Shown: positions 18,288-49,316 of the stretch, piece by piece
How positions within the stretch are numbered: the stretch's first letter is position 1
Layout: the number at the start of each line of letters is the position of its first letter
DNA from: Streptomyces pactum
GTDB taxonomy: Bacteria; Actinomycetota; Actinomycetes; Streptomycetales; Streptomycetaceae
DNA: 64,000 nt
Direction of reading: 5' to 3'
Assembly: GCF_002005225.1 (NCBI RefSeq)
Contig: NZ_CP019724.1
Coordinates: forward strand, 6,031,501 to 6,095,500
Program-made: the position numbers and the translations under genes
Notes under the pieces: model-generated
What the model was told of the DNA's origin: nothing
The model's input: only the letters and a program-made list of their open reading frames with translations
The model's database searches: none

Positions 18288-19919
18288 TCAGATCTGCGGA
18301 TCCACCGAACGCAGCAGTTCCAGCAGCCCCTGAGCCGGGACCAGTTGATCATCGGTCACCGGGTCCGGACTGAAGTGCATCAGGTCGTTGCGGAAGTTGC
18401 GGCAGTCCTCCAGCGCCGTCAGGAAGTGCTCCTGGTCGATGCCCCAACCCAGCGCGGCCCAGTTCTCCGGCACTTTGAGCAGATGCTTGTACGCCCCGAA
18501 CGTGAGGTTGGCGGCGGAATGGACCTGGGCGGCGCGTCCGCGCGGGACGGTCGCCTTGATGCGGTCGAGCGGAATACACCGGTCCACCACACGGCGCAGG
18601 CGCTGCTCGATCTCCTCGATCAGGACGAACGGACGTACGCGCGTGCCGAACTGCACCGTGAGGTCGGAGGCGGTGATCAGCCCGCAGACCTTGTGGTCGG
18701 GGTCGCGGACGACGACGTACCCGGACTGCTGGATGGCCCCGATCCAGTCGAGCAGGTCGTCCGAGCCGTTCGCCTCCTGCCCCCGCACGGTCGCGGCGTG
18801 CAGACCGGGCGCGGGATCCGCCATCCGGGCGCGCCCGATCGACTCCCAGCTCACGACGCCCCGCAGCCGTCCGTCCGCGTCGAGTACGGGAAGCTGGCTG
18901 TAGCCGCGCAGCACCATGAGCGTCGTGGCGGTGCCGAGGCTGTCCCCGACGCGTACGCACTCGGGCATCCGGTTCGCCGACTCGAGGTTGCTGACCCGGT
19001 AGGCGATGGCCTGTGTCTCGTCGTCCTCGTCGGGCAGCCCGCCGGTGAGCCCGGCCGAGGCGGCGGGGGGCGCCGACCCGAATGAGGCGTCCCGATCGCC
19101 GAGGGCCTGCGCCGCCCTCAGTCCCGTGCCGACGAGCCGGCTGACCGCGCTCGTTCCCGATTCGTCCGGCTCCGCGCCTCCCGCCAGCACCGCGATCCGG
19201 CTGTCCAGCGTGCCTTCGGTGAAGGGCGGGACGGTGACCAGGCCCCGCGCCTCCAGGTCGTTCTTGATCTGCTCGGTGGACGCCGGGTGACGCCGCTGGA
19301 CACCCCATACGGCGAGGAAGTCCCGGATGGACAGGGTGAGCGGTTCCGCGTCGCCGCGCCTGCGCACCTCCTCGTACAGCTTCGCGGGCTCGGTGAGGGT
19401 CGCGGCGAACTCGTCGGCGTCGGGCCGCCCCGGGTCGGGCTTGCCCTCGGCGAGCGCGGCCACGCGGTCCGCCGCGCCGAACCTGCTGATCTCGAAGACG
19501 GTCAGCAGGGAGCCCAGGCTGTCCAGCAGGTCCGACTGGATCTCGCGCCGGTCGAGGTCCTCGACCAGCCACTCCACCCGTCGGATGTGCCGCGTGCCCT
19601 CGGCGGCCCCGGCCCGGTACTCGTAGCCGCCCGTCACCCGGCCGATGGCCACCCGCGAGGACTTCAGGGGCAGCACGACGAGATCGCCGGACTGGATCTC
19701 GTGGACGAAACGGTAGAGCTGACCGGTCCAGTTCCCGATCGTGTACGGACCTTCGTCGGGGTAGGCGGCGGCCACGGCCGCCCTGACGTCGCCGCGCGTG
19801 GCGGAGTCGGCGAGATCGCCCCTCGTGAGCCTGTCCCACCCGACGACGAGAACACCCTCGTCCAGGGCCGACCGCTCGCGCTCCCCGTTCTCTCCCGCAC
19901 GCACCACCCAGGCCCGCAT
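18288..19919 (-). CDS. Mrr-N/EVE-like, CBS-pair, HEPN-like defence or regulatory protein
   Basis: 543 aa; the ATG at 19919 (MRAWVVRAGENGERERSALD) follows GGGGAGGAG. Residues 1-~170 resemble the N-terminal domain of Mrr-type restriction proteins (TIGNWTGQLYRFVHEIQSGD, VVLPLKSSRVAIGRVTGGYE), a possible modified-DNA reader. Residues ~195-245 look like a winged helix (LSIRDFLAVWGVQRR). Residues ~305-425 are two CBS motifs (GYSQLPVLDADGRLRGVVSW, YVVVRDPDHKVCGLITASDL), which usually bind adenine nucleotides. The C-terminal helical domain holds RNDLMH at 510-515, the R-x4-H motif of HEPN ribonucleases. No Mrr catalytic domain is present. It could be a nucleotide-controlled RNase effector or a regulator of the divergent kinase-helicase-methylase genes. 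The combination is inferred from sequence alone. Confidence 0.75.
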   Translation of the reverse strand: MRAWVVRAGENGERERSALDEGVLVVGWDRLTRGDLADSATRGDVRAAVAAAYPDEGPYTIGNWTGQLYRFVHEIQSGDLVVLPLKSSRVAIGRVTGGYEYRAGAAEGTRHIRRVEWLVEDLDRREIQSDLLDSLGSLLTVFEISRFGAADRVAALAEGKPDPGRPDADEFAATLTEPAKLYEEVRRRGDAEPLTLSIRDFLAVWGVQRRHPASTEQIKNDLEARGLVTVPPFTEGTLDSRIAVLAGGAEPDESGTSAVSRLVGTGLRAAQALGDRDASFGSAPPAASAGLTGGLPDEDDETQAIAYRVSNLESANRMPECVRVGDSLGTATTLMVLRGYSQLPVLDADGRLRGVVSWESIGRARMADPAPGLHAATVRGQEANGSDDLLDWIGAIQQSGYVVVRDPDHKVCGLITASDLTVQFGTRVRPFVLIEEIEQRLRRVVDRCIPLDRIKATVPRGRAAQVHSAANLTFGAYKHLLKVPENWAALGWGIDQEHFLTALEDCRNFRNDLMHFSPDPVTDDQLVPAQGLLELLRSVDPQI

Positions 19920-19941
19920 ACCGCTCCTCCCCGTACGCACA

Positions 19942-19971
19942 CGGCACATGATCAGGTGCCGCGACCCTATA
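19942..19971 (-). promoter_or_regulatory. promoter and 20-bp palindromic operator
   Basis: On the minus strand, TATAGG (19971-19966) is a good -10 hexamer for the gene at 18288-19919. A 20-bp near-palindrome, cggcacctgatcatgtgccg on the minus strand (19961-19942; 18 of 20 positions symmetric, centre TGATCA), lies just downstream, between the likely transcription start and the ribosome-binding site. This is the usual place for a repressor. The same 211-bp divergent gap must drive the kinase operon. Confidence 0.55.
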
Positions 19972-20130
19972 GCAGCGCCGGCCAACGGCCAGCGCAGTCA
20001 CCTCACTTCGGGTCGTCCGGGTGGTGCTTCTCAGCCGTCCGTGTGCGTTTCGCCACAGCCCGTAGACTGGCCGACGGCAGTGTGGCCGAGGTGAAGGCCG
20101 TGACGAGAGCGTGGGGGTACGGGAGCGCCG

Positions 20131-21507
20131 ATGGAGCCGCTGGACACCGAGGCCGACCCGCGTGTGGTGGGTCCGTTCGAACTGCTCGCCCGGCTCGGTG
20201 CGGGCGGCATGGGCGTCGCCTATCTGGCGCGCAGGATCCCCCTGGAGGGCCTCCCCGACGAGATGGCCGCGGCCTACCGCCTGGTCGAGCCCGATCACGA
20301 CCAGGAGGCCGATCCGGCCGGCCTCGTGGTGGTCAAGATGATCCTGCCGCGGCTGCTGGACCACCAGCCGCAGGCCCGTGAGCGGTTCGCGCGTGAGGTC
20401 GACGCCGTCCGCTCGGTCGTCAGCGACCGGGTTCCGGCGCTGCGCGGGGCGGATCCGGAGGCCGCCGAGCCGTGGTTCGCCATGGACTACGTCGCGGGTC
20501 CCTCCCTGCAGGTTCTGGTGAAGGAGTCCGGTCCGCTCGGCGTCGGACCGTACGCGGCGCTCGGGCTGGCCCTGGTGGACGCCCTGCGCGCCATCCACGG
20601 GACGAAGCTGCTGCACCGCGACCTCAAGCCCAGCAACGTCGTGCTCGGCCCGGACGGCCCGGTGGTGCTGGACTTCGGCCTGGCGGTGCTGTCCGAACGG
20701 CAGTCCAGCCAGGCGCTCACCCGGACCGGCGACCTCATGGGCACGCGCCCCTACATGCCCGTCGAGCAGCTCAGGGACACCAAGCACGTCGAGGAACCCG
20801 CCGATGTGTACGCCCTCGGAGCCACTCTCTTCTTCGCGCTGACGGGCAGGCCGCCGTATCCCGTCATGCCGCTGATGTCGCCGCCCAAGTGGGACGGCGT
20901 CGATCTGGCCTTCCTTCCGCTGCTGGCCCAGGTGCTCGTCGCCAGTCCCTCCCAGCGGCCGGATCTCGACGGTGTACAGGAGAGCCTGTTCACCTTGCTC
21001 GCCGACGCCGGTCTGACGCTTGAAGCCGCCACGGCCCAGCTCCAGGCCCGCGTCGCCGAGGCGGGGCTCACCCCGGAGCTGCCGCGGCGGGCCCTCGCCG
21101 ACCACGCGGACCCCGCCGTCCGGGAGCTCGCGCAGCACGCCGTCGACAGGGGGGACGCGCCGGACGCGCCCTGGGCGGAGGACGACCCCGGCTTCTACGG
21201 CATCGTGGACACGGACGAGATCGAGTGGGCCGCGGACGCCACCGACGGCCCGGACGCACCCGGCGGTCATCCGCCGACGCTCGTCGACCCCGACCCGGCC
21301 CCGCCCGTGGCACCGGCACCGCAGGCCGGGCCCTCCGGCGTCCCGGGGCCCGCCCCCACGAGCTACCCGCTCCCGCCGCCGCGCCCCCGCGACGCCACGC
21401 AGGAGCCGGCCGCCACCGCTTCGAGTGCCTCGCAGTCCGCTCCCCGGGCCGCGCGGAACGTCGCGGCCCGCATCCGCGAGCGGTACGCGCACCGCGGGGA
21501 ACTGTGA
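20131..21507 (+). CDS. soluble serine/threonine protein kinase
   Basis: 458 aa Hanks-type kinase. Gly-loop LARLGAGGMGVAYLARR, Lys in GLVVVKMILPRLL (after an insert in the N-lobe), HRDLKPSNVVLG catalytic loop, DFGLAVLS, and an APE-like MPVEQLR. There is no transmembrane helix or PASTA domain, unlike PknB homologues. The last ~120 residues are acidic then Pro/Ala-rich. The ATG at 20131 follows GGGAGCGCCG. It heads the run of DrmD-like helicase and adenine methylase. Kinases accompany several phage-defence systems (for example Pgl and Stk2-type), so phosphorylation of a defence component is a reasonable inference. Confidence 0.85.
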   Translation: MEPLDTEADPRVVGPFELLARLGAGGMGVAYLARRIPLEGLPDEMAAAYRLVEPDHDQEADPAGLVVVKMILPRLLDHQPQARERFAREVDAVRSVVSDRVPALRGADPEAAEPWFAMDYVAGPSLQVLVKESGPLGVGPYAALGLALVDALRAIHGTKLLHRDLKPSNVVLGPDGPVVLDFGLAVLSERQSSQALTRTGDLMGTRPYMPVEQLRDTKHVEEPADVYALGATLFFALTGRPPYPVMPLMSPPKWDGVDLAFLPLLAQVLVASPSQRPDLDGVQESLFTLLADAGLTLEAATAQLQARVAEAGLTPELPRRALADHADPAVRELAQHAVDRGDAPDAPWAEDDPGFYGIVDTDEIEWAADATDGPDAPGGHPPTLVDPDPAPPVAPAPQAGPSGVPGPAPTSYPLPPPRPRDATQEPAATASSASQSAPRAARNVAARIRERYAHRGEL

Positions 21508-22006
21508 GCGCGGGCCGACCGGTGATCACGGGCCGGCCGGCCCGGGCGGGGACCGCGTAGCGACAGCGGGCCCGCCCACCCGGTCGCAACCGCCCGCCCG
21601 GCCACGACCACCCGCCCCGCCTCAGCCGCCCGTCCGGCCACGACCGCCCGCCCCGCCTCAGCCGCCCGCCCCGCCCCGCCACCCGCCCCGCCTCAGCCGC
21701 CCGCCCGGCCACGACCACCCGCCCCGCCTCAGCCGCCCGCCCGGCCAACGACCGCCCGCCTGGCCACGAACACCCGCCCCGCCTCAGCCGCCCGCCCGGC
21801 CAACGACCGCCCGCCTGGCCACGACCACCCGCCCCCGCCCCAGCCGCCCGTCCCGCCCCAGCCGCCCGCCCGGCCACGACCACCCGCCCGGCCCCAGCCG
21901 CCCGCCCGGCCCCAGCCGCCCGCCCGAACCCGCACGCGGCCGTCCGTCACCCACCACCACGGCGCTACTCTCGACCACGCCCCGTACGACCCGGAAGGAC
22001 CCCTTC
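21508..22006. repeat. Pro-codon-rich minisatellite between kinase and helicase genes
   Basis: ~500 bp gap. 21575-21935 is a degenerate tandem array of gccacgaccacccgccccgc and cagccgcccgcccggcc units (period ~36 bp). The frame of the downstream helicase stays open through it, giving Pro/Arg-rich low complexity, but no start and Shine-Dalgarno sit upstream. The true helicase start at 22007 has GGAAGGA. The gap may contain a promoter near 21960-21990; nothing definite is seen. Confidence 0.8.
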
Positions 22007-25000
22007 ATGCCTGCACCCGACGGACCGCCGCCCGCCGGCACGGTGATCGAGGTACGGGACGAGGAGTGGATGGTCCGCAACAGCAGGCAGGTACGCCCCG
22101 GCGAGTTCCTGATCGAGGCCGTCGGCGCCTCCGACCTCGTACGCGGACAGGAAGCCCGGTTCCTCGCCCCCACGATGGACCGGCCCCGCGTCCTGCGCCC
22201 CGAGAACACCAGGCTCATCCCCGACGGCTCGCCCCATTTCCGCCGCAGCCGCCTCTTCCTGGAGGCCGTGCTGCGCAAGACGCCCCTGCCCCAGCGGGAG
22301 CGGCGCCTGGCGTTGACCGACGGGTTCCTCCTGGACCGCATGGACTACCAGTTGCGCCCCGCGGAGAAGGCGCTGGCGAACCCGCTGCGGCCCCGGCTGC
22401 TGATCGGCGACGTGGTCGGCCTCGGCAAGACCCTGGAGATCGGGGTGCTGCTCGGCGAACTGATCCGGCGCGGCCGGGGCGAGCGCATCCTCGTCGTCAC
22501 ACCCGCGCCCGTCCTCGAACAGTTCCAGCACGAGATGTGGACGCGGTTCTCCCTGCCGCTGGTCCGGCTCGACAGCGCGGGCATCGCCCGGATCGAGCGG
22601 AAGATCCCCGCGGGCCGCAACCCGTTCACGTACTACAAGCGCGTGATCATCTCCATGGACACGCTCAAGAACCCCAGGCGCTACCGGCCGTGGCTGGAGC
22701 ACATCCACTGGGACGCGGTCGTCATCGACGAGTCCCACAACCTGATCAACCAGGGCAGCGACCGCCGTGCCCTCGCCGATCTCCTCGCCGAACGCACCGA
22801 CGCGCTGATCCTGGCGAGCGCCACCCCGCACAACGGCGAGATGCCCGCCTTCACCGGTCTGATCCGCCTCCTCGACCCCATGGCGGTCGAGGACCCGAGC
22901 CGTCCGAGGGCGGAGGAGCTGGAACACCTCATGCTGCGCCGCACCAAGGTCAGCGCCGAGGTCGCGGAGCAGCTCAAGGACCACTGGGCGCCGCGCGGCG
23001 GCTCCCACCCCGTGCGGTGCCGGGCGAACGCCCTGGAGGAGGAGGTCTTCCAGGAGCTGGCCGAGCACTGGCTGAAGCAGCGCGAACGGCAGGCACAGGC
23101 GGAGGACCGGCTCTTCCCGTACGTCCTGCTCAAGTCCTTCCTGTCCTCGCACCGCGCCCTGTTCGCCACGGTCCGTCAGCGGCTGACCCGGACCGGACAC
23201 GTGCTCCCCGAGCGGCACCGCGTCACCGACGAGCCGCCGGCCGGCGTCGCCCCGAGCACACCCGAGGCCGCCTCCCTGCTGCGCCTACTGGAGCTGGCGC
23301 GGGCGATCGAGCGCGCGGGCGCCGGGGACGGCGTGCCGGCCGCCGCCTCCAAGCTGGCGGGGCTGGTCGACGAACTGCGCCGCATCGGCGTGAGGGCGGG
23401 CAGCCCCACCCGCGCGGTCGTCTTCTCCGAGCGCCGCGAGACCCTCGACTGGCTGGGCGAGGTGCTCCCGCCCCTGCTCGGCTGGCAGGCCGAGGACGAC
23501 GCGCGGGCCGCGGTCAAGGTCATGTACAGCGGCGCCGGCATCTCCGACCGGGTGCAGATGGAGTACGTCGACGAGTTCGCCCGCGCGGGCAGCGACGTGC
23601 GGCTGCTCCTCACCGGCGACGGCGCCTCCGAGGGCGTCAACCTGCACCGGCAGTGTCACCATCTCATCCACTGGGACCTGCCCTGGAGCCTGATCAGGGT
23701 CGAGCAGCGCAACGGCCGCATCGACCGGTACGGGCAGACCAGGCCGCCGCAGTTCCGCGCGATGATCCTCGAGTCGGCGGTCGAGGGCGCGCTGGACGAC
23801 ACGGACATCGCCGAGAAGGTCCTCGCCCGCGAGGAACGGGTGCACGCGGTCCTCGGCGCCGTGGAGGCGGCGACGAAGGACAACGACGGCGACAAGGAGG
23901 AGAAGCGTGTCATGGAGGCGCTCTTCCGGGGAGAGGCACCCCGGCCGGCCGTGGACGGGCTGCAGACCGTCTCCGCGGACTCCCTCGGCGCCCTGGACTC
24001 CCTGGACGACGGGTTCACCGCGGATCTGCCGCTCGCCCAGCGGCTGAACGCCGAGTTCGGTACGGGCACGGACCCGTACGACGACGAGTCGGACTTCGAC
24101 TTCGGCTTCGACTTCGACGACACCCCGGACACCCCCGGCACCCCCGGCGCCCCGGAGCCGGGCCCCGGCGCCCCGGCCGGGAGCACCGCGGGCAACGGCC
24201 ACGGCCACGCCCCGGTCCGGGTCGTCGAGGAACTGCGCCTGTTCACGGACCGCCGCGACTACGTCCTCGCCGGCCTGGAGGAGCTCGCCGACCTGGAGGC
24301 GTTCCGCCTGGACACCACCGTGCAGGGCACCGACCTCAGCTTCGACACCCCCGAGGACCTCGCCGACCGGCTCGACGTGCTGCCCGCCGGCTACCTGCGC
24401 GACCACGGCATCACGCGCCGTATGAAGCTCACCTTCAGCCGCGAGGACGCGGCCGACTCCCTGCGCCGGGCCAGGGAGGACGCGGACTCCGTGTCGCTGT
24501 GGCCGGACGCCCACTACGTCGGCGAGCTGCACCCCGTCCTGGAGTGGATCACCGACAAGGTCCTCGTCCAACTGGGCCGTCAGCAGGCCCTCGTCGTCCA
24601 GGTGGACCGCGCCCGCGTACCGGAGCCGGTCTTCCTCACCCAGGGCGTCTGGTCCAACCGGGACGGCCGCCCGACGGTCGTGGCCTGGCTGGCCGTCGAC
24701 CGGCTGGGCCGGGCCGGAGCGGAGCCCCGGGTCCGGGAACTGACCCGGCCCCTGCTCGCCGAACTCGGCCTGGGCCCCGCCATGCCGGACCACTTCGCCG
24801 AGGGTGACCCGGCCGCGCTCCAGCAGTACGTCGGGGCCGCCGTCGCCGCCACCCGCCGCGAGATGGACCGGCGACGGCAGGAGGCGGAGGAGCACATCGA
24901 CCGTCCGCTGCGCGAGTACGAGACGAGGGTCGGCCACTGGCGGGAGCAGAAGCTGCCCGGCTTCACCGGCGGACACACCGCCCGGGAGCGGGCCGCCGAG

Positions 25001-25084
25001 AACCTGGAGAAGGCCGCGGCCCGGCTGCGCACGGCCGGCGACCCGATGGTGCGGGTCCTCGCCGTCCTGGAGCCGAGCGCATGA
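22007..25084 (+). CDS. drmD: SNF2-family helicase, DISARM DrmD-like
   Basis: 1025 aa. Helicase motifs: I in LLIGDVVGLGKTLEIGVLLG (~132-150), II DESHNLINQGSD (~241), III LASATPHNGEM, V LTGDGASEGVNLHRQC and VI VEQRNGRIDRYGQTRP (~566). This is the Swi2/Snf2 (RapA-like) pattern of DrmD, the marker of class 1 DISARM, a multi-gene restriction-like defence in which methylation marks self DNA. The C-terminal third is acidic with an FDFGFDFDD tract, then a helical tail. The ATG at 22007 (MPAPDGPPPAG) has GGAAGGA 8 nt upstream. The adenine methylase follows after 106 bp. DrmA, DrmB and DrmC were not found in the window. Confidence 0.85.
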   Translation: MPAPDGPPPAGTVIEVRDEEWMVRNSRQVRPGEFLIEAVGASDLVRGQEARFLAPTMDRPRVLRPENTRLIPDGSPHFRRSRLFLEAVLRKTPLPQRERRLALTDGFLLDRMDYQLRPAEKALANPLRPRLLIGDVVGLGKTLEIGVLLGELIRRGRGERILVVTPAPVLEQFQHEMWTRFSLPLVRLDSAGIARIERKIPAGRNPFTYYKRVIISMDTLKNPRRYRPWLEHIHWDAVVIDESHNLINQGSDRRALADLLAERTDALILASATPHNGEMPAFTGLIRLLDPMAVEDPSRPRAEELEHLMLRRTKVSAEVAEQLKDHWAPRGGSHPVRCRANALEEEVFQELAEHWLKQRERQAQAEDRLFPYVLLKSFLSSHRALFATVRQRLTRTGHVLPERHRVTDEPPAGVAPSTPEAASLLRLLELARAIERAGAGDGVPAAASKLAGLVDELRRIGVRAGSPTRAVVFSERRETLDWLGEVLPPLLGWQAEDDARAAVKVMYSGAGISDRVQMEYVDEFARAGSDVRLLLTGDGASEGVNLHRQCHHLIHWDLPWSLIRVEQRNGRIDRYGQTRPPQFRAMILESAVEGALDDTDIAEKVLAREERVHAVLGAVEAATKDNDGDKEEKRVMEALFRGEAPRPAVDGLQTVSADSLGALDSLDDGFTADLPLAQRLNAEFGTGTDPYDDESDFDFGFDFDDTPDTPGTPGAPEPGPGAPAGSTAGNGHGHAPVRVVEELRLFTDRRDYVLAGLEELADLEAFRLDTTVQGTDLSFDTPEDLADRLDVLPAGYLRDHGITRRMKLTFSREDAADSLRRAREDADSVSLWPDAHYVGELHPVLEWITDKVLVQLGRQQALVVQVDRARVPEPVFLTQGVWSNRDGRPTVVAWLAVDRLGRAGAEPRVRELTRPLLAELGLGPAMPDHFAEGDPAALQQYVGAAVAATRREMDRRRQEAEEHIDRPLREYETRVGHWREQKLPGFTGGHTARERAAENLEKAAARLRTAGDPMVRVLAVLEPSA

Positions 25085-25096
25085 CCGCCCGCCCTT

Positions 25097-25154
25097 CGAA
25101 TCCCGTGCACGCACAGCATCCGATGCGTGCGGTGCACCCCGCGAATCCCGTGCA
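25097..25154. promoter_or_regulatory. hairpin and direct repeat before the methylase gene
   Basis: The 106-bp gap between helicase and methylase contains cgaatcccgtgca twice (25097-25109 and 25142-25154). Between them lies a 7-bp inverted repeat, gcacgca (25107-25113) / tgcgtgc (25124-25130). The symmetry suggests a regulator site or attenuator that could set methylase expression apart from the helicase. There is no direct evidence. Confidence 0.45.
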
Positions 25155-25190
25155 TCCCGTCCCTGAAGCGAGCCGGCAGGAGCAGCAAGC

Positions 25191-28100
25191 GTGAAGTTCG
25201 ACGCTCTGGTCAACGAGGGTGAGTACTTCCCGTCCTTCTACCTGGACGAGATCCTGCCCAAGCAACTGAAGACCGGCCGCCTGAAGGAGTGGGCGGCCGA
25301 GGAGCGCCACGGCCGCCCCACGCCCCGGCAGGGGCTGCGGGACCTCACCGCGCCCTACCTGGACGTCCGGCTCGGTGTGGGCGGCGAGGCGGAGAAGTAC
25401 AACGTCCTGCCCGACCCGGAGGCCGTCACCGCCCAGCGGACGGCGACCGAGGCGCTGAAGACCCACACCGGCACGGACGAGCCGCCCGCCTTCCGGCCGC
25501 AGCCCGCCCCGCGCGCGTACGGCGACAGCCCGGAGGAGGAGTGGCGCGCGGGCCTGCACGCCTGGCACGTCCGCGTCCTCGAGGCCCTCGGCTTCACCCC
25601 CCGCCCCGGCCACCTCACCGTCCACGGCGCCGCCGGTCCCGTAGCGGTGCCCGTGGCCCACAGCGAGCCCGGTGTCGCCGTCCTGGCCGGCGGCTTCGCC
25701 GACGACATCGCGGACACGCGCGGCGACGGCTCCGCCAACCGCCTGCCGGTGCCCGTCCGCGTGGCTTCCGGCAAGACCCTCACCACGGTCACCGACCTCG
25801 CCGCCTGGCTGCTCGCCGCCGACAACGCCCCCCGCTACGCGCTCCTCCTCTTCGGCGGCGTCATGGTCCTCGCCGACCGCGAGAACTACGCGCGCGGACG
25901 CCATCTCGCGGTCAGCCTGGAGGTCGCCCTGCCCCGCAAGGGTCTCAAGGGCGCGAGCGCCGGCGAACTGGACGTGATCGCCGCCCTGTTCGGCGCACCG
26001 TCCCTGCGTCCGGCCGAGGACGGCGGGGACGACGACGTCTCCCGCCTGGTGGCCGAGTCCCGCGACCACTCCGTGGGCGTCACCAACGACCTGCGCGAGG
26101 GGCTGAAGGCGTCGGTCCAGCTCATCGCCAACGAGGTCCTGGAACTCGCGGCGATGCGGGGCGTCACCCACGACGACCTCCCCGAGTGGCTGCCCGGCCC
26201 ACTCGCCGAGCGCGGCGCGCTCCCGCACCTCCTCACCAAGGAGTCCCTGCGCTACCTGTACCGCATCCTCTTCCTCCTCTACGCCGAGGCCCGCCCCGAG
26301 CTGGACATCCTCCCGATGAGGAGCGAGGAGTACGTCCAGGGTTACAGCGTCGCCCGCCTGCGCGAACTCGCCGTCCAGGAGAAGCTGTCCAGCACCTCCC
26401 GCGACCGCCACCACTTCCACGACTCCCTCGCCCTGCTCTTCGAGAAGGTCTTCACCGGCCACCCGGTGGCGGACACGATCACCTCCCGGGAGGCGGTTGT
26501 ACCGGGCGCGGGCGAGGCAGTACACGACGACGCGGCGGCGGGGCTGTCCGAGGACGACGGCTACGAGGGCGTACGCATCGAGGCCCTCAAGTCCCGCCTC
26601 TTCGACCCGGCCTCCATAAAGCTCGTCGACCAGGTGATCACCCACCCCGACGACGTCGACCCCGACGGCATGGCCCGCGACGGCGCCCGCCGCCTCGACC
26701 TGCGCCTGCGCAACAAGGTCCTGCACCAGGTGCTGCGCAACCTGACCGTCGTCGAGGGCAAGGGGCGCGGCGGACGCGGCGGCTTCATCTCGTACGCCAA
26801 CCTCAGCATCAACCACCTCGGCGCGGTGTACGAGGGCCTGATGTCGTACACCGGTTTCATCGCCGACGAGCCGCTGTACGAGGTCGCCAAGGGCGGTGAC
26901 CCGAGCGGCGGTTCCTGGCTGATCCGGGCGAGCCAGGTCCGCTCCGGCCGCTATCCGGACGGCCCCGACGACAGCGTCTTCGTCGCCACGGAGCTGAACC
27001 CCCAGACCAACGAGCGTGTACCGGTCCCGCGCAAGGTCGGCACCTACGTGTACCGCCTCGCCGGCCGCGACCGCCAGACCAGCGCCTCCTACTACACGCC
27101 GGAGTCCCTCACCCAGGCCACGGTCGAGCAGACCCTGCGCTTCCGCCTCGACGAGAAGGGCGACGTCGACCCCAAGGAGCCGGAGAAGGCCTGGGTCGAC
27201 GCGGCCGACGTACTGCGCTGGCGGGTGTGCGAACCGGCCCTCGGCTCCGGCGCGTTCCTCAACGAGGCCGTCAACCAGCTCGCCGAGCTGTACCTGCGGC
27301 TCGCCCAGCGTGAGCGCGGCGTCGACATCGACCCCGAGGACTACCAGCGCGAACTGCAGAAGGTGAAGGCGTACATCGCCCTGCACAACGCGTACGGCGT
27401 CGACCTGAACGAGACGGCCGTGGAGCTGGCGGAGATCTCCCTGTGGCTGAACACCATGTACCGGGGCATGAAGGCACCCTGGTACGGCCTCCACCTCCAC
27501 CGGGGCAACTCCCTCGTCGGCGCCGCGCGCAAGGTCTATCCCGGCAACAGCCTCAGCAAGGGCGGCTGGCTGACGGCGAAGGCCCCGCAGCGGCCCCGGC
27601 ACGTTCCGCTGGGCGAGCGGCTCAAGGGGCGCGAGGTGCACCAGTTCCTGCTGCCCGCGATGGGCTGGGGCTCCATCGGCGAGAAGGTCGGCCTGCGCAC
27701 CCTGAAGAAGGGCACGGCGGAGGAGACGGTGAAGGCCGTGGTCGACGGCGACGTCGTCGACTGGCTGGAGCCCGGGCTGGTCGAGGCGCTGCGCAAGTGG
27801 CGCTCGGCGATGCGGCGCAACCCCAAGGGGGAGCCGAAGCGGGCGGCGGCGCCGAAGAAGAAGGCGGCGCCGACGGCGGAGCAACTGGCGGCGGAGACGG
27901 ACGACGCCGGGCTGGGGCAGGGGGCCTTCGACCTCGGGCTGGAGATCTGGGAGCAGCCTTCGCTGGGCGGGGCGGCGGCGGCCTCCGTTTCGGCTTCGGC
28001 TTCGGCTTCGGTGGACGACGACGGGGAGCCCGGGGCGGCGACCGAGACCGGACGGCTGATCAGGCTCGCCCGGCGCGTCGAGTACCTGTGGGACCTGGTC

Positions 28101-30752
28101 GTCATGCGGCTGACGCTGTCCGAGCGGGAGATCTCGCGGCACGTGGACGTGTGGGGTGCGGCCATCCCGCAGGACGGGCGGGACGCTGAGGGTGCGGCGC
28201 CGATGGACCGGGACGCGGTTCTGGAAGCGCTGCACCGCAAGGGCACGCCCTACTGGCGGCTCAAGCAGCTCATGGACGCGTGGTGCGCGCTGTGGTTCTG
28301 GCCGCTGGAGGAGATCGGGCGGCTGGACGGCTCGGACGAGTTCGAGTACCGGGTGGAGGGTGAGGACCGTACGACCCTGCGCAAGGGTGACTCCCGGCGC
28401 CGGGTCGCGCTGAAGTCCCTCAAGGACTGGATCGAGTTCGCCGAGGCCGTCGTCGGGCGCGTGGACGTGGACACGGGGGAGGAGGGGCGGCAGATCTCGC
28501 TGCTGTCCTTCGAGGGCGTCCGGAGCCTTGAAGAGCTCGACGACAAGGAACGCGAACTCGACGAGAAGATGACCGAGGCCACGGCGTGGGCCAAGCCGGC
28601 GGACCTCGGATGGACGTTCCCCTGGTACGAGACGGTCGAGCGGATCGCCAAGGAGCGGGGCTTCTTCCACTGGGAGCTGGACTTCGCGCATGTGTTCGCG
28701 GAGGGCGGCTTCGACCTGATGGTGGGGAATCCGCCGTGGGTCAAGCAGGAGTGGAAGGAGAGCGGCGTCCTCGCCGAGTTCGAGCCGTGGTTCGAGCTGG
28801 CGGACAAGCCGAGCAACGAGGCTTGGGACGGGCGCAAGGCCGAGGTCATGGCGTGGCCCAAGGTCGAGCCGACGTACCTTGGGGAGCTGGCGGACCATGC
28901 GGCGGTGTCCGAGTTCCTGGCGTCGGTGGACACGTATCCCGAGCTGGTAGGCACGCAGCCGGATCTGTACCGGGCGTTCATGCTGCTGAGTTGGAGGGCC
29001 GTCGGCGAACGAGGTACTGCCGGGCTGATTCACCCGTCCACGCATCTGACGGGGGCGAAAGAAGGCGCTCTACGCAAGGCGGCGTACAGGCACCTGAGGC
29101 TGCATGCGGACTTCGTGAATGAGTTGCTGCTCTTCGCCAAGCCGGTGAACAACAGCACCCACTTCAGCGTCAATGTCTACGGCAAGGACCAGGACGTCAG
29201 CTTCCAGCACATGAGCTGGCTCCTGCATCCCAGCGTGCTCGTCAAGTCCGTACGACATGACGGTGAGGGCCCGGTCCCAGGAGTGAAGGACGAGGGCAAG
29301 TGGGACCTGCGTCCGCACCGCGACAGGATTGTCACCGTCAACGAACAGCGACTTCGGGAGTGGCGTGCCCTGGCTGGTGAGGAGAGCCCACCGCCTGTGG
29401 AGCAGGCCAAGCTCCTGTACCCGGTGACGCGGGCGGAAGAGTCTGCGGTGCGGGCGCTTGCGAAGTGGCCGCATCGGCTCGCCTCTTTCGGGCCGCGTAT
29501 TAGTCCTGGGTTTCATGAGAAGAGCGACCGCACGGCTGGCTACTTCACATGGACTCCGGGGCCTACCGGCAGATGGCAGGACGTGATCCTTCAGGGTCCA
29601 CTGATTCACATCGCCACGCCGTACCACAAGCAGCCCCCTGAGGGCGGCTCGAAGAGCATGCGTGACTATGACGCTTGGGATCACCGGAACCTGCCGGTCG
29701 ACGCGGTGCCGCGTACGAACTACCGTCCCGCAGGTGCTCGTCCACGATTCGTAACCGCCCAGGACCGTTGGGTGGATCATGACCGGCTAACTCAGCTCTG
29801 CGCTGATCCGGCTGCGGTCGCGGCGGCAGAGGCGGACGTCAGGACGGCAGAGCCCGACTTGAAGGGAGACGCTCGCGACAAGGCTGTTCACGCACTGCTG
29901 CAAACGGCCAGTACGCGGCCGTACTCGGAGTTCTATCGGGTGGCATGGCGGGAGATGATCGCCACGAACACCGAGCGGAGCTTGTTCGCTGCCCTGATTC
30001 CGCCCGGTGCCAACCATATCCACGCCGTGCGCAGTGCCGCGCTTCCATCACTGCGCCTCACCGCTCTGACAGCAGGGTTCTTTGCGTCAATCGCTCTTGA
30101 CTACCTCCTCCGAAGCTCGGGTCGAGGCCACCTCGCTACTTCAGATGCCAGGGTCATGCCTGCGCCGACCCCAGATCACCCCTTGGGACAGGCCCTTCTC
30201 CTCCGCACCCTCCGCCTCAACTGTCAGACCAGCGTCTACGCCCCACTCTGGGAGGAGCTATATGACTCGGTCTGGCAGCAGGACACTTGGGCTGCCTCGA
30301 CATACTGGCCCGAAGGCACACCCCCGTTCGCCGAGGGCGTCACCGCCACCTGGACCCGCGACACCCCCCTCCGCACGGAGTTCGCCCGCCGGGCCGCCCT
30401 CGTCGAGATCGACGCTCTCGTCGCCGTCTGGCTCGGCATCAGCGCCGACGAGCTGGTGGCCATGTACGACGCCCGCTTCCCCGTACTCCAGCAGTACGAG
30501 GAGAACATGTGGTTCGACGCCACGGGCCGTCGTATCGCCAAGGCACACCAGCAGTACGGGTACGGCCAGCCCAAGGAGGCATGGAAGCAGTTGAGCAAGC
30601 CGGAGGCATTCCCGGAGGAGTACGCGGTCCCGGACGGCTACACCGGCCCCCTCTACCGAGCCAACCGCAAGGCCGAGATGCGCGCCGCCCACGCCGAGTT
30701 CACGCGTCGCCTGCGTGAGGCCGGCTGGGAACCGGGTGACACGGGTATCTGA
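25191..30752 (+). CDS. drmMI: large adenine-specific DNA methyltransferase (DISARM class 1 DrmMI-like)
   Basis: 1853 aa, starting GTG (VKFDALVNEGEYFPSFYLDE) after CAGGAGC. The catalytic part is N6-adenine methyltransferase: motif X SASYYTPESL, motif I EPALGSGAFLNEA (~681, SAM binding), AYGVDLNETAVELAEISLWL, and motif IV FDLMVGNPPWVKQEW (NPPW at ~1180). About 480 residues separate motifs I and IV, including a Lys/Ala-rich linker. The N-terminal ~600 residues and C-terminal ~500 are probably the target-recognition and nuclease-coupling parts. It should mark host DNA for the DrmD-like helicase. PglX of BREX is a related alternative, but no pglZ or brxC is present. From ~28900 on codon use is visibly less GC-biased in the third position, as if that segment came from elsewhere. 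Confidence 0.85.
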   Translation: MKFDALVNEGEYFPSFYLDEILPKQLKTGRLKEWAAEERHGRPTPRQGLRDLTAPYLDVRLGVGGEAEKYNVLPDPEAVTAQRTATEALKTHTGTDEPPAFRPQPAPRAYGDSPEEEWRAGLHAWHVRVLEALGFTPRPGHLTVHGAAGPVAVPVAHSEPGVAVLAGGFADDIADTRGDGSANRLPVPVRVASGKTLTTVTDLAAWLLAADNAPRYALLLFGGVMVLADRENYARGRHLAVSLEVALPRKGLKGASAGELDVIAALFGAPSLRPAEDGGDDDVSRLVAESRDHSVGVTNDLREGLKASVQLIANEVLELAAMRGVTHDDLPEWLPGPLAERGALPHLLTKESLRYLYRILFLLYAEARPELDILPMRSEEYVQGYSVARLRELAVQEKLSSTSRDRHHFHDSLALLFEKVFTGHPVADTITSREAVVPGAGEAVHDDAAAGLSEDDGYEGVRIEALKSRLFDPASIKLVDQVITHPDDVDPDGMARDGARRLDLRLRNKVLHQVLRNLTVVEGKGRGGRGGFISYANLSINHLGAVYEGLMSYTGFIADEPLYEVAKGGDPSGGSWLIRASQVRSGRYPDGPDDSVFVATELNPQTNERVPVPRKVGTYVYRLAGRDRQTSASYYTPESLTQATVEQTLRFRLDEKGDVDPKEPEKAWVDAADVLRWRVCEPALGSGAFLNEAVNQLAELYLRLAQRERGVDIDPEDYQRELQKVKAYIALHNAYGVDLNETAVELAEISLWLNTMYRGMKAPWYGLHLHRGNSLVGAARKVYPGNSLSKGGWLTAKAPQRPRHVPLGERLKGREVHQFLLPAMGWGSIGEKVGLRTLKKGTAEETVKAVVDGDVVDWLEPGLVEALRKWRSAMRRNPKGEPKRAAAPKKKAAPTAEQLAAETDDAGLGQGAFDLGLEIWEQPSLGGAAAASVSASASASVDDDGEPGAATETGRLIRLARRVEYLWDLVVMRLTLSEREISRHVDVWGAAIPQDGRDAEGAAPMDRDAVLEALHRKGTPYWRLKQLMDAWCALWFWPLEEIGRLDGSDEFEYRVEGEDRTTLRKGDSRRRVALKSLKDWIEFAEAVVGRVDVDTGEEGRQISLLSFEGVRSLEELDDKERELDEKMTEATAWAKPADLGWTFPWYETVERIAKERGFFHWELDFAHVFAEGGFDLMVGNPPWVKQEWKESGVLAEFEPWFELADKPSNEAWDGRKAEVMAWPKVEPTYLGELADHAAVSEFLASVDTYPELVGTQPDLYRAFMLLSWRAVGERGTAGLIHPSTHLTGAKEGALRKAAYRHLRLHADFVNELLLFAKPVNNSTHFSVNVYGKDQDVSFQHMSWLLHPSVLVKSVRHDGEGPVPGVKDEGKWDLRPHRDRIVTVNEQRLREWRALAGEESPPPVEQAKLLYPVTRAEESAVRALAKWPHRLASFGPRISPGFHEKSDRTAGYFTWTPGPTGRWQDVILQGPLIHIATPYHKQPPEGGSKSMRDYDAWDHRNLPVDAVPRTNYRPAGARPRFVTAQDRWVDHDRLTQLCADPAAVAAAEADVRTAEPDLKGDARDKAVHALLQTASTRPYSEFYRVAWREMIATNTERSLFAALIPPGANHIHAVRSAALPSLRLTALTAGFFASIALDYLLRSSGRGHLATSDARVMPAPTPDHPLGQALLLRTLRLNCQTSVYAPLWEELYDSVWQQDTWAASTYWPEGTPPFAEGVTATWTRDTPLRTEFARRAALVEIDALVAVWLGISADELVAMYDARFPVLQQYEENMWFDATGRRIAKAHQQYGYGQPKEAWKQLSKPEAFPEEYAVPDGYTGPLYRANRKAEMRAAHAEFTRRLREAGWEPGDTGI

Positions 30753-30769
30753 TCAGGCTCCGACACGCA

Positions 30770-30809
30770 CGAGAGCCCTGCCGTCCGAAAAGTACCGGCA
30801 GGGCTCTCG
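30770..30809. terminator. bidirectional terminator after the methylase gene
   Basis: A perfect 14-bp stem, cgagagccctgccg (30770-30783) and cggcagggctctcg (30796-30809), with a 12-nt loop containing gaaaag. It lies between the convergent methylase and DUF397 genes. Confidence 0.9.
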
Positions 30810-30823
30810 CGACCGTACGAGCG

Positions 30824-31039
30824 TCAGACGCGCCGTTCCGTCGTGGCCAACCCGACGAATCCCGCCCACGCGTCACGCGACACCGCGACGACGGGGCCAG
30901 CGGCGGCCTTGGAGTCCCGGACGTGCACAACTGCGGTATCGGCCGCGACCTCTACACAATCGCCGCCCTCGGCTCCGCTGTAGCTGCTCTTGAACCAGGC
31001 GAAGCCGGACGCGGCGGTCGAGGACTCAGCGTTGTTCAT
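30824..31039 (-). CDS. DUF397 protein
   Basis: 71 aa. DUF397 signatures: FAWFKSSYSGAEGGDCVEVA and VVHVRDSKAAAGPVVAVSRDAWAGFV. Such proteins pair almost always with an XRE regulator of the DUF5753 type in actinomycetes, and some pairs work like a toxin-antitoxin or developmental switch (WhiJ/BldB-type clusters). The ATG at 31039 overlaps the XRE stop by 4 nt, so the two are co-translated. Confidence 0.92.
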   Translation of the reverse strand: MNNAESSTAASGFAWFKSSYSGAEGGDCVEVAADTAVVHVRDSKAAAGPVVAVSRDAWAGFVGLATTERRV

Positions 31040-31950
31040 AGCGATCCCAACAACCCTTCGATGAACTCCAGTGACTCTCGTGAAGTGAGAGCCTGTGATC
31101 GGATGATCCCATAACGGGCGGCGGCGAGAGTCGTCTGTTCCGGGTCAGTCTGGAGGGCGCTGGTTCCTTGGGCCTCGGCGTAGACGAACCTCATCCCGTC
31201 TTTGCGCGTGACGATCGTGTAAGGCCCGTCCACGCCTGCGCTCTCCTCGCAAGAGAGTGGCATGACCTGGATCACGACGTTCGGAGTCTGGCCCATCAGC
31301 AGCAGGTGTTCCAACTGCCCGCGCAGAACCCCCTCCCCACCGTACGGCCGCCGCAGCACCGACTCATCCATCACGAAACTCAGCAATGGCGCGGGCCAGC
31401 GGTCGAAGATTTCCTGCCGGGCCAGGCGCGCCGCCACCCGTTGCTCAATGGTCTCCGCGTCCAGGACGGGGCGCCGCATCCCCAGCAGCGCTCTCATGTA
31501 CTCCTCCGTCTGAAGCAAACCCTTGACCACGAGGGTGTCGTACGAGAGCAGCTCAACGGCCTCCTTCTCCAGCGTCGCCATCCCCTGAAAGAACACCGGA
31601 TACTGAGCCCGCTCCACCTCCTCCTTCCACAGGCACAGCAACCCGCCCGCCCCCAGCACCTCGTCCGCCTGGTCGATGGTCCTGGGCGACGGGATCCTCC
31701 GCCCCTGCTCGAACGACGCGACCGTCGACGCCGAGTACCCGATCCGGCTCCCGAACTCCCCCCGGTCCAGCCCCTCCCGCAGCCGCAGCGTCTTCATGGT
31801 CTGCCCGAACGCGGCCACCACGCCCTTCCCGGCCCCGTCCTCGGGGCGCCGCCCGTCACCGCTGCCGTCGTCGCCGCTCTCCCAGCCGTCCCCGACACTC
31901 ACGACCGCCGCCCCGCCGTCTCCGCCGCCCGAACCCGTACGCTCCGTCAT
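31036..31950 (-). CDS. XRE-family regulator with DUF5753 domain
   Basis: 304 aa from the ATG at 31950 (MTERTGSGGG), preceded by GGGAGGCGG; an upstream start at 32025 would add 25 residues without support. After a Gly/Asp-rich lead, residues ~45-110 are a helix-turn-helix (TLRLREGLDRGEFGSRIGYS, ASTVASFEQGRRIPSPRTI). The remainder is DUF5753 (SYDTLVVKGLLQTEEYMRAL, PNVVIQVMPLSCEESAGVDG). It is a WhiJ-like DNA-binding protein expected to control its own promoter and a divergent ATP-binding partner. Here that partner is missing beside it; a related ATP-binding gene occurs 4.5 kb away at 36590. Confidence 0.92.
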   Translation of the reverse strand: MTERTGSGGGDGGAAVVSVGDGWESGDDGSGDGRRPEDGAGKGVVAAFGQTMKTLRLREGLDRGEFGSRIGYSASTVASFEQGRRIPSPRTIDQADEVLGAGGLLCLWKEEVERAQYPVFFQGMATLEKEAVELLSYDTLVVKGLLQTEEYMRALLGMRRPVLDAETIEQRVAARLARQEIFDRWPAPLLSFVMDESVLRRPYGGEGVLRGQLEHLLLMGQTPNVVIQVMPLSCEESAGVDGPYTIVTRKDGMRFVYAEAQGTSALQTDPEQTTLAAARYGIIRSQALTSRESLEFIEGLLGSL

Positions 31951-32328
31951 CGAACACCGCCTCCCTGGCCCAACGCCCCCGCTGGGAACGCCGTCACGCC
32001 CCGCGCTTCGTACTCGTGGAGGCACCGCGCGTACAACCGGCCACGTCGGTGCGTCACATACCGGTCACGCTACGCGGTCGATGGTGTGGTGGTGGCCGTG
32101 ATGAGCAAGTCCACCGACACCACCCGCCCCCGACACGTCGCTCCTGACCGACACGAGATCAGCGCAATGAGCCAACCAGTTCTCGGTGCTCAGCCGTTGG
32201 AGGCGATCGCTGAACGCCAGCCGCATGACATACCGTTGGGATGGTCGCTCGAAGCGGCCGTCCGGCACGGCGGGGTGGTTCTCGGCCGGTCTGCCGGTCG
32301 TCTCGACCCGACGGCGGGAGCGTGTTCG
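31951..32328 (+). promoter_or_regulatory. XRE promoter region (repeat copy A) with relic of a divergent gene
   Basis: 31989-32066 is ~85% identical by eye to 36481-36557 (shared runs cgccgtcacgcc, ccgcgcgtaca, cgtcggtgcgtcac, ggtcacgcta). Beyond it, ATG at 32101 opens MSKSTDTTRP, which mirrors MTSKPTGATG of the ATP-binding gene at 36590. After ~12 codons the similarity stops. It looks like a decapitated divergent partner. The frame stays open into the NIPSNAP-like gene, but that gene's family start is at 32329. Confidence 0.6.
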
Positions 32329-36176: not shown

Positions 36177-36480
36177 ACGGCACCCGCATTCCGCAGATCG
36201 GATCGGCACCCGCACAACACTTGCGACGTCCCCGTCCCGTTGCCCCATTCACCGTCACGGATTCCTCGCACACCCCACCCGCACCGAACGCACAGGGCAC
36301 GAAGGCCGTCGGCGCCCATGATCCAAGGACGACCGGGCGGGAAACAAGAAGGCCCGAGGAAACCAGCCACGTGCCGCACATCCCCGGTTGCCGGGCCCTT
36401 GTCCGTGACAGCATCGCCGACTATCACCCTTGCAAGGCGAGCGATGTGGTGCCGCGCCGGGCAGGTTGTCCGCCCTGCCC

Positions 36481-36557: not shown

Positions 36558-36589
36558 ACGCTAAGCAACCGACGTGAACCTTGGTGGGT

Positions 36590-37150
36590 ATGACGAGCAA
36601 GCCCACCGGCGCCACCGGCACCCCCGACCCCACTCAACTCATCGCCCTCAGACACCACCTGACCGACAACCCGGGCGCATCGGCGGCGGCGACGGCGCAG
36701 CGCACCTTCGAGATGCGCTTCACCTCCACGCCGCGCGGCGCCCGCCTCGCCCGCCGCCTGGCAGCCGTCCGCCTGGACTCCTGGGGGATCCCGTACGGCA
36801 CCGACGCCCACGACGCGATCGTGCTGATCGTCGCCGAGCTGACCGCGAACGCCGTCGTGCACGGCCACGTCCCCGGCCGGGACTTCCACCTCCGCCTCCA
36901 CCTGCACGCCGACGCCCGCTCCACGACCGCCCGTGCGGAAGTCACGGACACCCGGGGCGAGCGCGTCCCACCCCGGCCGGGAGCCATCGCCCCCGCCCCG
37001 GAAGTGGCCGAGTCGGGCCGGGGCCTCCTCCTGGTCGCCGGCCTCGCCACCCGCTGGGACTGGCACCCCCGCCCCGACGGGCCGGGCAAGACGGTCTGGG
37101 CGGAGTACGAGGTCCAGGCCGAGCCTCATGCACATCTGCCGCATGCGTGA
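36590..37150 (+). CDS. HATPase_c (anti-sigma-kinase-like) ATP-binding protein
   Basis: 186 aa. GHKL ATPase fold without a phospho-acceptor domain: N-box LIVAELTANAVVHGH, G1 AEVTDTRGERVP, G2 ESGRGLLLVAGLATRWDW. Streptomyces have dozens of these; some are anti-sigma kinases, others accompany XRE/DUF397 pairs. ATG 36590 (MTSKPTGATG) is preferred; TTG 36581 and GTG 36584 would add 2-3 residues. A strong terminator follows at 37223. It is the probable former partner of the XRE gene at 31036. Confidence 0.88.
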   Translation: MTSKPTGATGTPDPTQLIALRHHLTDNPGASAAATAQRTFEMRFTSTPRGARLARRLAAVRLDSWGIPYGTDAHDAIVLIVAELTANAVVHGHVPGRDFHLRLHLHADARSTTARAEVTDTRGERVPPRPGAIAPAPEVAESGRGLLLVAGLATRWDWHPRPDGPGKTVWAEYEVQAEPHAHLPHA

Positions 37151-38114: not shown

Positions 38115-41100
38115 ATGAGACCCACACTCGCCGCGCAGACACTGCGCGACACCACGGTCGAGTACCTGACGACGACCTTCGCGCTGGCCGAACCCGACAC
38201 CCAGGACGCGCTGGAGGACTTCCTCACCGACCCGGCCGACGGGCTCTTCCGGGGCCCGTATCTGCGGATCAGGCGTCCCTTCCGGACGGCGGCGGACGGC
38301 TGGCAGCGCCACCTGGACTGGTACCCGGCCAACTTCCCGCCCCCGTACGCGCACCAGGCCGAGGCGTTCGCACGGCTGACCAGCAAGGACGGGCACCGGC
38401 CCCGGCCCACGCTGGTGACGACCGGCACCGGCTCCGGGAAGACGGAGTCCTTCCTGATCCCCGTACTCGACCACTGCCGTCGGGAGAGGGAAGCCGGTAA
38501 GACGGGCATCAAGGCCGTACTGCTGTACCCGATGAACGCCCTCGCGGGCGACCAGGCGGACCGGCTCGGCGACCACCTGGAGGACGGCCGGCTCGGGGAG
38601 GTGACGGCCGGGCTGTACATCGGCCAGGCGTCGTCGCGCGGAACCGCGCCGTACAAGCGGGTCATGGTGGACCGCGCGGAGATCCGCCGCAATCCGCCGG
38701 ACATCCTGATCACCAACTACAAGATGCTGGACCTGCTGCTCCAGCGGCAGCAGGACGCCTCCCTGTGGCGGGACGCCGACCTGGCGTACGTGGTGATCGA
38801 CGAGTTCCACACGTACGACGGCGCGCAGGGCACCGACGTGGCGATGCTGCTGCGGCGGCTCGCGGCCGTGGCCGGAGCCGGCGAGGAGGGGCGGCCGCTC
38901 GGTTCCGTCTGCCCGGTGGCGACCTCCGCGACCCTCGGGTCCGGCGGCGCGGCGGGCGGACCCGCGGCCATGCTGCACGTGGCCTCCCAGGTCTTCGGCA
39001 CCCGGTTCCCGGACGACGCGGTGGTGGGGGAGGACCGGCGGGACGCCGAGGAGTTCCTGTCACCCGTCGACCACTCGCTGCCCCTGCCGTCACCGGCCGA
39101 GCTGGCCGGCCTGCCCGATCCGGCGCGGACGGCCGGTGGCCTGGACGCCGTGGCGCGGGCGACCGTGGGCTGCGACACCGCCGATCCGCGCGAACTGGGC
39201 AGGCGGCTGCTGGCCCACCCCCTCACGCACGCGCTGCTGGCCGCGAAGGACGAGCCCCTCACACCCACCGGAATCCTGGAGGCGTTCCCGGCCACGTCGG
39301 CGTGGCGGGCCGCGGCCGTCCGGGAACCGGAGCAGGCGGCCGCCGCCCTGGCGCGCTTCGTGGCGCTCATCTCGGTGGCCCGCGACCCCGAGGCGCCCGC
39401 GGACAAGGAGCGGCCCCTGCTCCTCGTGGAGACCCATCTGTGGCTGCGGTCGCTGTCGCGCGTGCTGCGGTTCGTGGCACCCCAGCCGGTGTTCTCCTGG
39501 TCGGACGCCGACCAGGCCGCCCTCGGCGGCGCCGGGACGACGTCCGGCGCCGAAGCCGCCGCCGGGGCCGGTCGGGGGCGCGGCGCGGACGCCGGGCGGC
39601 GGGCACCGGCCGTCGCCGCGCAGACGGAGCGGCGACGGCACGTCCAGCGCTCCGGACGGCTCCCCGCCGCCTACTGCCGGCACTGCGGACGCTCCGGCTG
39701 GGCCGCGATCTGCCCCGACCGCAACCCGCAGAACCTCGTGCACGCGCCGGACGAGATCTACCGCGCCAGCGTGACCGGCGGCGCCGCCAAGGGCCGGGTG
39801 CGGGCGATGATCGCCGCCACCCCGGCGGAGGCGGCCGAGCAGGCCCGCGCCGTGCGGGCCAGCCGTGCGGCCCGGCGCGCCCGCCGGGGCGCGGCGCACG
39901 ACGCGACCCTGCTGATCCTGGAGGACAACGGCAAGGCGCTGCGCAGACTCGACCCGGACGAGGTCGCGCTCGACGACGGCCGGACCGCCCCGGCGCCCGA
40001 GAACGGCGTGTACGTGTGGACCTGGTTCGACAACCAGGAACAGGCCGACCACGCCAAGCAGGACCGCTGCCCTGCCTGCGGCCAGGCCCAGGGCATCCGC
40101 TACCTCGGCGCCGGTGTCGCCCCGCTGGCCTCCGTCGTCGTCACCCAGTTGTTCACGGGCGGCGAGCTGCCGAGCGAGGACGAGCACAAGCGCGACCGGC
40201 GCAAGACGCTGATCTTCAACGACTCCGTGCAGGACGCGGCCCACCGCGCGGGATTCGTCGCCAGCCGCTCCTGGAAGTTCTCGCTGCGCTCCCTCGTCCA
40301 CGAGCAGCTCACCGAACGCGTCCGAGGCGGACCGGAGTTCGCCGCCGACGGCGTCCCGCTGAACGAGCTGATCTCCTCCCTGATCAGCCGGGCCGCCGTC
40401 CCGGAACAACGGCTCCTCGCCTCCGTCGTACCGCCCGACCTGCACGACGTGGACCGCGTCAAGCGCCTGCTGGCGGGCAAGAAGCGCATCCCGGAGTCCA
40501 CCTGGGAGCTGGTCGGCGAGCGCCTCGCCTTCAACACCCTGCTGGAGTTCGGCCTCCACTCCCGGCTGGGCCGCACCCTGGAACTCACCCGCACCGTCGC
40601 CGCCGAGGTCCACCTGCCCGACCCGCGGGCGGCGGCCGACGCGGCGGAATCCCTCTACCGGGTCCACCTGGAAAAGCTCCTGCCCGTGGCCGTGCCCGGG
40701 GCCGTGCCGGTGGACGAGGCTCCGGCGCGGGCGGACGGCGCCGACGGGACCGGAGGACCCCGGGCCGTCGTTCCGGCCGAGGGGAGCCCGGAGCGCCCGC
40801 GCTACTTCGAGGGCTATGTGCGCGGACTCCTCGAACACGTCCGCCAGATCGGCGGCATCCACCACAGGTGGCTGGACAAGTTCATCGACGACGAGGGCCG
40901 CAGCCGGCACTTCGTCTCCAACGGCCGCGAGCCCGGCATGCCGCTGTTCGGCAGCAACTCCGAAGCCCCCGCCTTCGTCCTCGTCGGCGCCCGCGGCGGA
41001 CGCACCGAGTTCGAGCGGGTGGACACCCGGGACAGTTGGTACGTCGACTTCACCCAGCGCTGCCTCGACCTGGACCGGGAGACGGCGGGCGCCTACCTGG

Positions 41101-47513: not shown

Positions 47514-49316
<1,803 letters not shown>

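Follow-up and report, generated by a model that had tools for sequence, protein, structure and literature searches.

The Pgl gene set comprises the kinase PglW, the methylase PglX, PglY and PglZ, and that of MADS (methylation-associated defence) includes a kinase and a methylase. ARMADA was described in 2025 (Bell et al., PMC12458937), and its type II form is reported there to provide a direct defence that does not kill the cell and for which each of the arm genes A to D, as well as the NPPW motif, is required in E. coli. DS-11 is reported to be a single-gene antiphage defence in E. coli, for which the HEPN residues and Y157, a CBS tyrosine contacting adenine, are required (PMC13092281). The main text of PMC12458937, supplements aside, contains no mention of a kinase or of HEPN. 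In the literature searched, we found no description of a kinase-led ARMADA or of a fusion between an EVE reader and CBS-HEPN, nothing on how ARMADA is controlled and, in the literature on EVE with CBS and HEPN, on EVE type IV and on MADS, no paper on this locus.

Here, we analysed a stretch of 64,000 nucleotides from Streptomyces pactum (hereafter the window), in which the original prediction had placed a defence unit of four genes. Judged by sequence comparison, the locus almost certainly belongs to ARMADA type II (armA-armB-armC-armD), and we consider it probable that it represents a kinase-led actinomycete subtype with an optional EVE-CBS-HEPN gene at its edge. While ARMADA type II and the CBS-HEPN protein DS-11 are already known, the leading kinase with its tail motif and the EVE/YTH-like reader fused to DS-11 appear to be new, neither having been found in the literature searched.

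Organization of the locus

The four predicted genes are present in 18288-30752, with refined coordinates (Table 1), and an independent codon-score gene caller also picked all of them. The accessory gene starts at 19919, as in the database entry P0016, and most of the listed homologues cover 96% of a longer frame of 565 aa. The ARMADA unit extends past 30752 to 47563, with armC and armD downstream of the predicted genes, the ATG start of armD overlapping the stop of armC. The original prediction named a complete drmABC set nearby as a refuting condition, and this condition applies in part: an MZB helicase and a UvrD helicase, 7.4 kb downstream, complete ARMADA type II.

Table 1. Features of the S. 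pactum locus, in window coordinates
Feature	Position	Strand	Remarks
EVE/YTH-like reader + CBS pair + HEPN RNase (DS-11-like accessory)	18288..19919	-	543 aa, divergent from kinase
Predicted EVE/YTH-like domain of accessory	19437..19919	-	residues 1-161
HEPN motif R510-x4-H515 of accessory	18375..18392	-	
Ser/Thr kinase leading the ARMADA operon	20131..21507	+	Pfam Pkinase, 85.8 bits
Conserved C-terminal tail motif of kinase	21463..21489	+	residues 445-453
ArmA, RapA/BrxHII-like SNF2 helicase	22007..25084	+	match to E. coli ArmA and RapA structures
ArmB, PglX-like N6-adenine methyltransferase	25191..30752	+	match to E. coli ArmB, NPPW 1180
HTH DUF5753 regulator, accessory, between armB and armC	31036..31950	-	Pfam DUF5753, 161 bits; same place in other loci
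HATPase_c_2 (RsbW-like) gene, accessory, before armC	36590..37150	+	Pfam, 50 bits; same place in other loci
ArmC, YprA-like DEAD helicase (MZB domain; Vsr-like motif at the C-terminus)	38115..45248	+	
ArmD, GajB-like UvrD helicase	45245..47563	+	match to E. coli ArmD

Between armB and armC, the window also encodes an nSTAND1-WD40 protein (32622-36176, Pfam domains), which is missing from an otherwise colinear locus (G287), and a small gene pair (37335-37972) that by eye looks like an RHH antitoxin and a PIN toxin. A similar pair is found before armC in L056, L059, L060 and L172, and a PADLOC search of the window pair gave no match. On the left of the accessory gene, the genes of 13662-18030 look, on inspection by eye, like a Streptomyces conservon that includes P450 genes, and the island would thus seem to end with the accessory on this side. 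In addition, the same genome holds a second complete copy of kinase-led ARMADA (C1:2098000-2136000; L005 and L171), with a CHAT-domain protein in front and a GmrSD_N-domain gene between armB and armC. Such changing neighbours (CHAT, GmrSD, McrB-like, N6-methylase) brought to mind interchangeable effectors, but we do not claim this, since the content of defence islands is variable in any case.

The core proteins correspond to those of E. coli ARMADA

Reference ArmA-D proteins were taken from E. coli ATCC 8739, and their catalytic residues (K136, D236, N971, K110, D234, K266 and D454) sit at the numbers published in PMC12458937. The window helicase matches E. coli ArmA with 394 bits and 30% identity (query 11-1021 on positions 9-947 of 952), carries GLGKT at 138 (Walker A) and DESH at 241 (Walker B), and matches RapA structures with an E-value of 3e-34. 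The methylase matches E. coli ArmB in two pieces (338 and 329 bits), with motif I (PALGSGAF) at residue 682 and the predicted NPPW located at residue 1180; N971 of the latter motif is reported as required in E. coli (PMC12458937). A search of ArmB against the PDB by sequence gave no match. The giant helicase aligns with E. coli ArmC over 2067 columns with 635 bits, against 116 bits for its best piece with the Druantia III helicase encoded next to the E. coli ARMADA genes, and an MZB domain was found in it. With regard to the C-terminal Vsr-type nuclease expected of ArmC in ARMADA type II, a Vsr-like pattern (DGYRWH...WQITW) is present in both the window ArmC and E. coli ArmC, and overall 10 of 21 ArmC sequences matched it. 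Finally, the UvrD helicase matches E. coli ArmD from ArmD residue 50 onwards (282 bits, 32% over 721 columns), the type II definition of ArmD being a UvrD helicase with a RelE-like domain at the N-terminus.

The order A-B-C-D of E. coli is also that of the window and of 23 further loci. Flanking DNA was sufficiently long in 25 core loci (the window, the second copy of its own genome and 23 others); ArmC is present in all of them and ArmD in 24, G004 being without a recognisable ArmD.

These matches bear on two other readings of the core. The original prediction took the helicase and the methylase for an orphan piece of class 1 DISARM, and a decayed or rearranged system of this class is consistent with the matches of the helicase to the DrmD model (268 bits) and of the methylase to the DrmMI model (182 bits). 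However, the DrmD score lies far under the curated cut-off of 610 bits, the large helicase aligns with E. coli ArmC over 2067 columns, and the DrmB model (NF038324) matched nothing in this genome at E ≤ 0.001, in a search whose control was positive in 2 of 14 genomes. Class 1 DISARM was thus rejected, its probability being practically negligible, and the two genes are to be read as armA and armB. A type IIG restriction-modification enzyme with unrelated neighbours is highly improbable too, even though REase_MTase_IIG was the best PADLOC label of the methylase (PDLC03611, E-value of 8.8e-255): within residues 1-560 of 83 methylase homologues, no Lys is conserved at 93% or more, so that this sequence test revealed no PD-(D/E)XK motif, and the synteny with armA, armC and armD is repeated. 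Altogether, ARMADA type II remains the reading to retain, and three tool labels that mask it in the S. pactum genome (DrmD, DruE and type IIG) are corrected.

A leading kinase marks one clade of ARMADA loci

Using the best 80 of 524 related helicase loci, all from actinomycetes, we found the kinase upstream of armA in 76 of the 76 loci with upstream DNA (4 of the 80 end at a contig edge), which agrees with the predicted place of this gene at the head of the run. By gene calls alone, kinase, helicase and methylase follow each other in the same order and direction in 73 of 84 loci, and the recurrence of this order across loci indicates that the linkage is not due to chance. At the genus scale, the helicase was detected in 14 of 101 genomes at E ≤ 1e-60, and the kinase is present in 13 of 13 fetched loci, some of whose strains are also among the 80. 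No kinase was found beside armA in E. coli (chromosome and one plasmid), Pseudanabaena, Haematobacter, Martelella, Tsukamurella and M. riyadhense (whose locus is broken by transposases), the kinase-less groups including one cyanobacterium and two alphaproteobacteria. Likewise, none was found beside armA in 9 of 13 class-sampled actinomycete loci, and the four with a kinase include both Streptomyces.

The ArmA tree contained 71 rows, 56 with a kinase (a selection from those available) and 15 without, and left out L215, whose gene was not called whole. The kinase rows form one clade (SH-aLRT of 97), with a single change of the kinase label on the tree compared to a mean of 13.8 after shuffling. 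A single gain of the kinase would be the simplest reading of this pattern, but falls short of proof, given that the tree was built quickly and that its outer branches are long.

Other genes were observed around armA. In L239, which lies outside the kinase clade, a divergent gene of 1347 aa beside armA gave weak kinase matches, and the N-terminus of its product resembles, by eye, the NERD domain known from PglW. On two alphaproteobacterial plasmids (L217 and L246), a WYL-domain gene lies directly 5′ of armA, that is, in the place of the kinase in the actinomycete subtype. A helicase and DUF1998 pair is found directly upstream of kinase-less ARMADA in L214 (11041-15950, annotated) and L237 (by eye, DUF1998-like gene only).

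The window kinase carries HRDLK and DFGL. Among 93 ARMADA kinases, a set that includes strains fetched twice, we found HRD-K in 92 and DFG in 85, and a few of these kinases may therefore have altered catalysis. In these kinases, the catalytic domain is followed by a linker of variable sequence and, at the C-terminus, by a motif of approximately [LIM]R..Y[AS]. This tail motif occurs in 91 of the 93, the two without it being the deepest kinase loci (L167 and L169). Within the S. pactum genome, both ARMADA kinases carry the motif and 0 of the 19 other kinases read to the C-terminus do so, the remainder of the 25 hits of this control consisting of 2 cut sequences, 1 neighbour repeat and 1 hit without a frame. 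A set of 14 kinases outside the trio arrangement makes a less clean control than the own-genome kinases, since it includes ARMADA kinases whose loci are poorly called, disrupted or truncated: L067, L073 and L077 have the motif, L110 has a V variant, L112 is cut and L135, a broken locus, has a kinase that, in its called form, is without it. The maintenance of a tail behind a variable linker suggests that this segment serves for docking. It is highly probable that the kinase is a working part of the system, although it need not be essential, since the E. coli ARMADA is functional without any kinase.

The EVE-CBS-HEPN gene is an optional neighbour

The gene divergent from the kinase was predicted to encode a protein made of a DNA reader, a CBS pair and HEPN, and this composition is upheld. 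Indeed, R510, N511 and H515 show no variation across an alignment of 46 homologues, and the predicted numbering of R510 and H515 is right; the HEPN assignment relies on the DS-11 model and on the motif, with no fold match. The N-terminal domain was folded alone, because the fold search with the whole model was filled by CBS domains, and its predicted structure resembles EVE/YTH domains; this is the domain labelled ‘Mrr-N’ in the original prediction. By sequence, matches of the accessory to the PDB were weak, with CBS first. Against NF053863, it scored 258 bits (equivalog cut-off of 260) over profile positions 1-295 of 305.

Among the intact, resolvable same-family loci, the gene joining reader and DS-11 adjoins kinase-led ARMADA in 11 of 17. 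It is divergent and 5′ of the core in the window, G004, G535, G623, G484, G514, G546 and G433, on the same strand 5′ of the core in G110, on the same strand 3′ of armD in G411, and convergent and 3′ in G148. The remaining 6 of the 17 (G287, G223, G206, G337, G309 and G367, with limited flank for G309 and G337) are without the core. Two loci at contig ends (G132 and G320), one with the reader domain cut short (G037) and two fragments (G441 and G217) were left out of the 17. Some loci of this G set are probably from the same strains as L057, L059, L061 and L069, and the G and L sets are not independent. Considered from the helicase side, the accessory lies within 5 kb upstream in 12 of the 76 best helicase loci and in none of 13 same-genus ARMADA loci. 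In two further loci (L134 and L135), a DS-11-like gene that lacks the reader domain lies close to the core. Since the accessory is present in 12 of 76 loci and also occurs without the core, it is optional and not a core gene.

These counts weigh on the original proposal of a distinct system made up of just four genes, i.e., the kinase, helicase and methylase genes together with the HEPN gene. Kinase, helicase and methylase do recur, consecutive and co-directional in 73/84 loci, and the HEPN gene is found in 12/76. Moreover, armC (25/25 loci with enough flank) and armD (24/25) belong to the unit, and all four arm genes are reported as needed in E. coli (PMC12458937), making a four-gene system very unlikely compared to a kinase-led ARMADA with an optional neighbour.

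The case of G287 is informative in this respect. This locus is colinear with the window except for the WD40 gene and 19976-30680 (kinase, armA and nearly all of armB), which are missing, and the last 73 bases of armB are left beside the accessory; no armC or armD was detected in the fetched flanks. Thus, the core has disappeared here whereas the accessory has been retained, and the persistence of the latter after the deletion of kinase, armA and armB shows that it can do without the core. Accordingly, the EVE-CBS-HEPN gene may be an independent one-gene defence that shares only the island with kinase-led ARMADA, without any functional link, and we give this reading a little less than an even chance: besides G287 and the other core-less loci, DS-11 is reported to work alone in E. 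coli (PMC13092281). In contrast, the four placements found beside the same core family, though the helicase occurs in just 14/101 genomes of the genus (E ≤ 1e-60), argue against mere island sharing, and the functional coupling of the accessory to ARMADA is in our view an evenly balanced question.

Two further arrangements were noticed. In L052 (9687-12017), a reader-like N-terminus of the accessory type is joined to DUF4357 and to an ATPase of the AAA_5 (McrB-like) type; this fusion gene lies beside kinase-led ARMADA, from which a second kinase separates it. In L039 and L153 (G206 and G309), the core-less accessory lies beside another kinase (526-528 aa) and a protein of 1058-1066 aa, whose start resembles, by eye, that of a type I restriction subunit.

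Proposed mechanism

YTH domains read m6A, and PglW has been proposed to act as a switch in Pgl/BREX-2, a role analogous to the one considered here for the ARMADA kinase. In our proposal, ArmB would methylate adenines of the host DNA and thereby set a self mark, while ArmA, ArmC (with its C-terminal Vsr-like nuclease motif) and ArmD would attack DNA without this mark. This attack would be one component of the direct and non-abortive protection reported in E. coli. The kinase may dock on a core protein via its conserved C-terminal segment, and phosphorylation could turn the ARMADA complex on or off. The accessory would provide a second layer, in which the EVE/YTH-like domain might read modified DNA and the CBS pair an adenine nucleotide, HEPN cutting RNA as a backup once phage DNA, e.g., modified phage DNA, escapes ARMADA. 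A more far-reaching version would be a two-tier, phosphorylation-gated immunity, with a tail-held kinase licensing the attack by ArmA-D on unmarked DNA and the EVE/YTH-CBS-HEPN protein monitoring the same adenine methylation, so as to set off RNA cleavage upon subversion of either the mark or the core; we regard this version as tentative and rather unlikely.

A clade-marking kinase with a near-constant tail offers a direct handle on the switching-on of helicase-methylase systems. In addition, the EVE-CBS-HEPN protein would link the reading of modified bases to an RNase already known to stop phage.

Comparison with known systems

The locus shares features with several systems. As in class 1 DISARM, there is a DrmD-like helicase, a PglX-like methylase and an MZB (DUF1998-type) domain, MZB being the former DUF1998; here, however, helicase and MZB domain are in one protein that matches ArmC, and no DrmB match was found in the genome. 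As in Pgl/BREX type 2, a protein kinase, a PglX-like methylase and a helicase are combined in one Streptomyces defence locus, but YprA and UvrD helicases stand in place of PglY/PglZ, and this label was rejected with a kinase score of 48 of 990 bits to PglW. MADS resembles the locus by its kinase and methylase, and was rejected with 77 of 460 bits for the kinase to MAD6 and no NCBIfam MADS model at E 0.01 for the other three proteins, the PADLOC matches considered going up to 25 rows.

The accessory is closest to DS-11 (PMC13092281, NF053863), with a CBS pair followed by HEPN and an intact R-x4-H motif, and differs from it by the extra N-terminal EVE/YTH-like domain, a score 2 bits under the cut-off and its frequent position next to ARMADA. 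As for the core, the likeness to ARMADA type II covers order, strand, domains and catalytic motifs, and all four proteins match, whereas the E. coli system is without the leading Ser/Thr kinase, the regulators between armB and armC and the EVE-CBS-HEPN accessory that distinguish the S. pactum locus.
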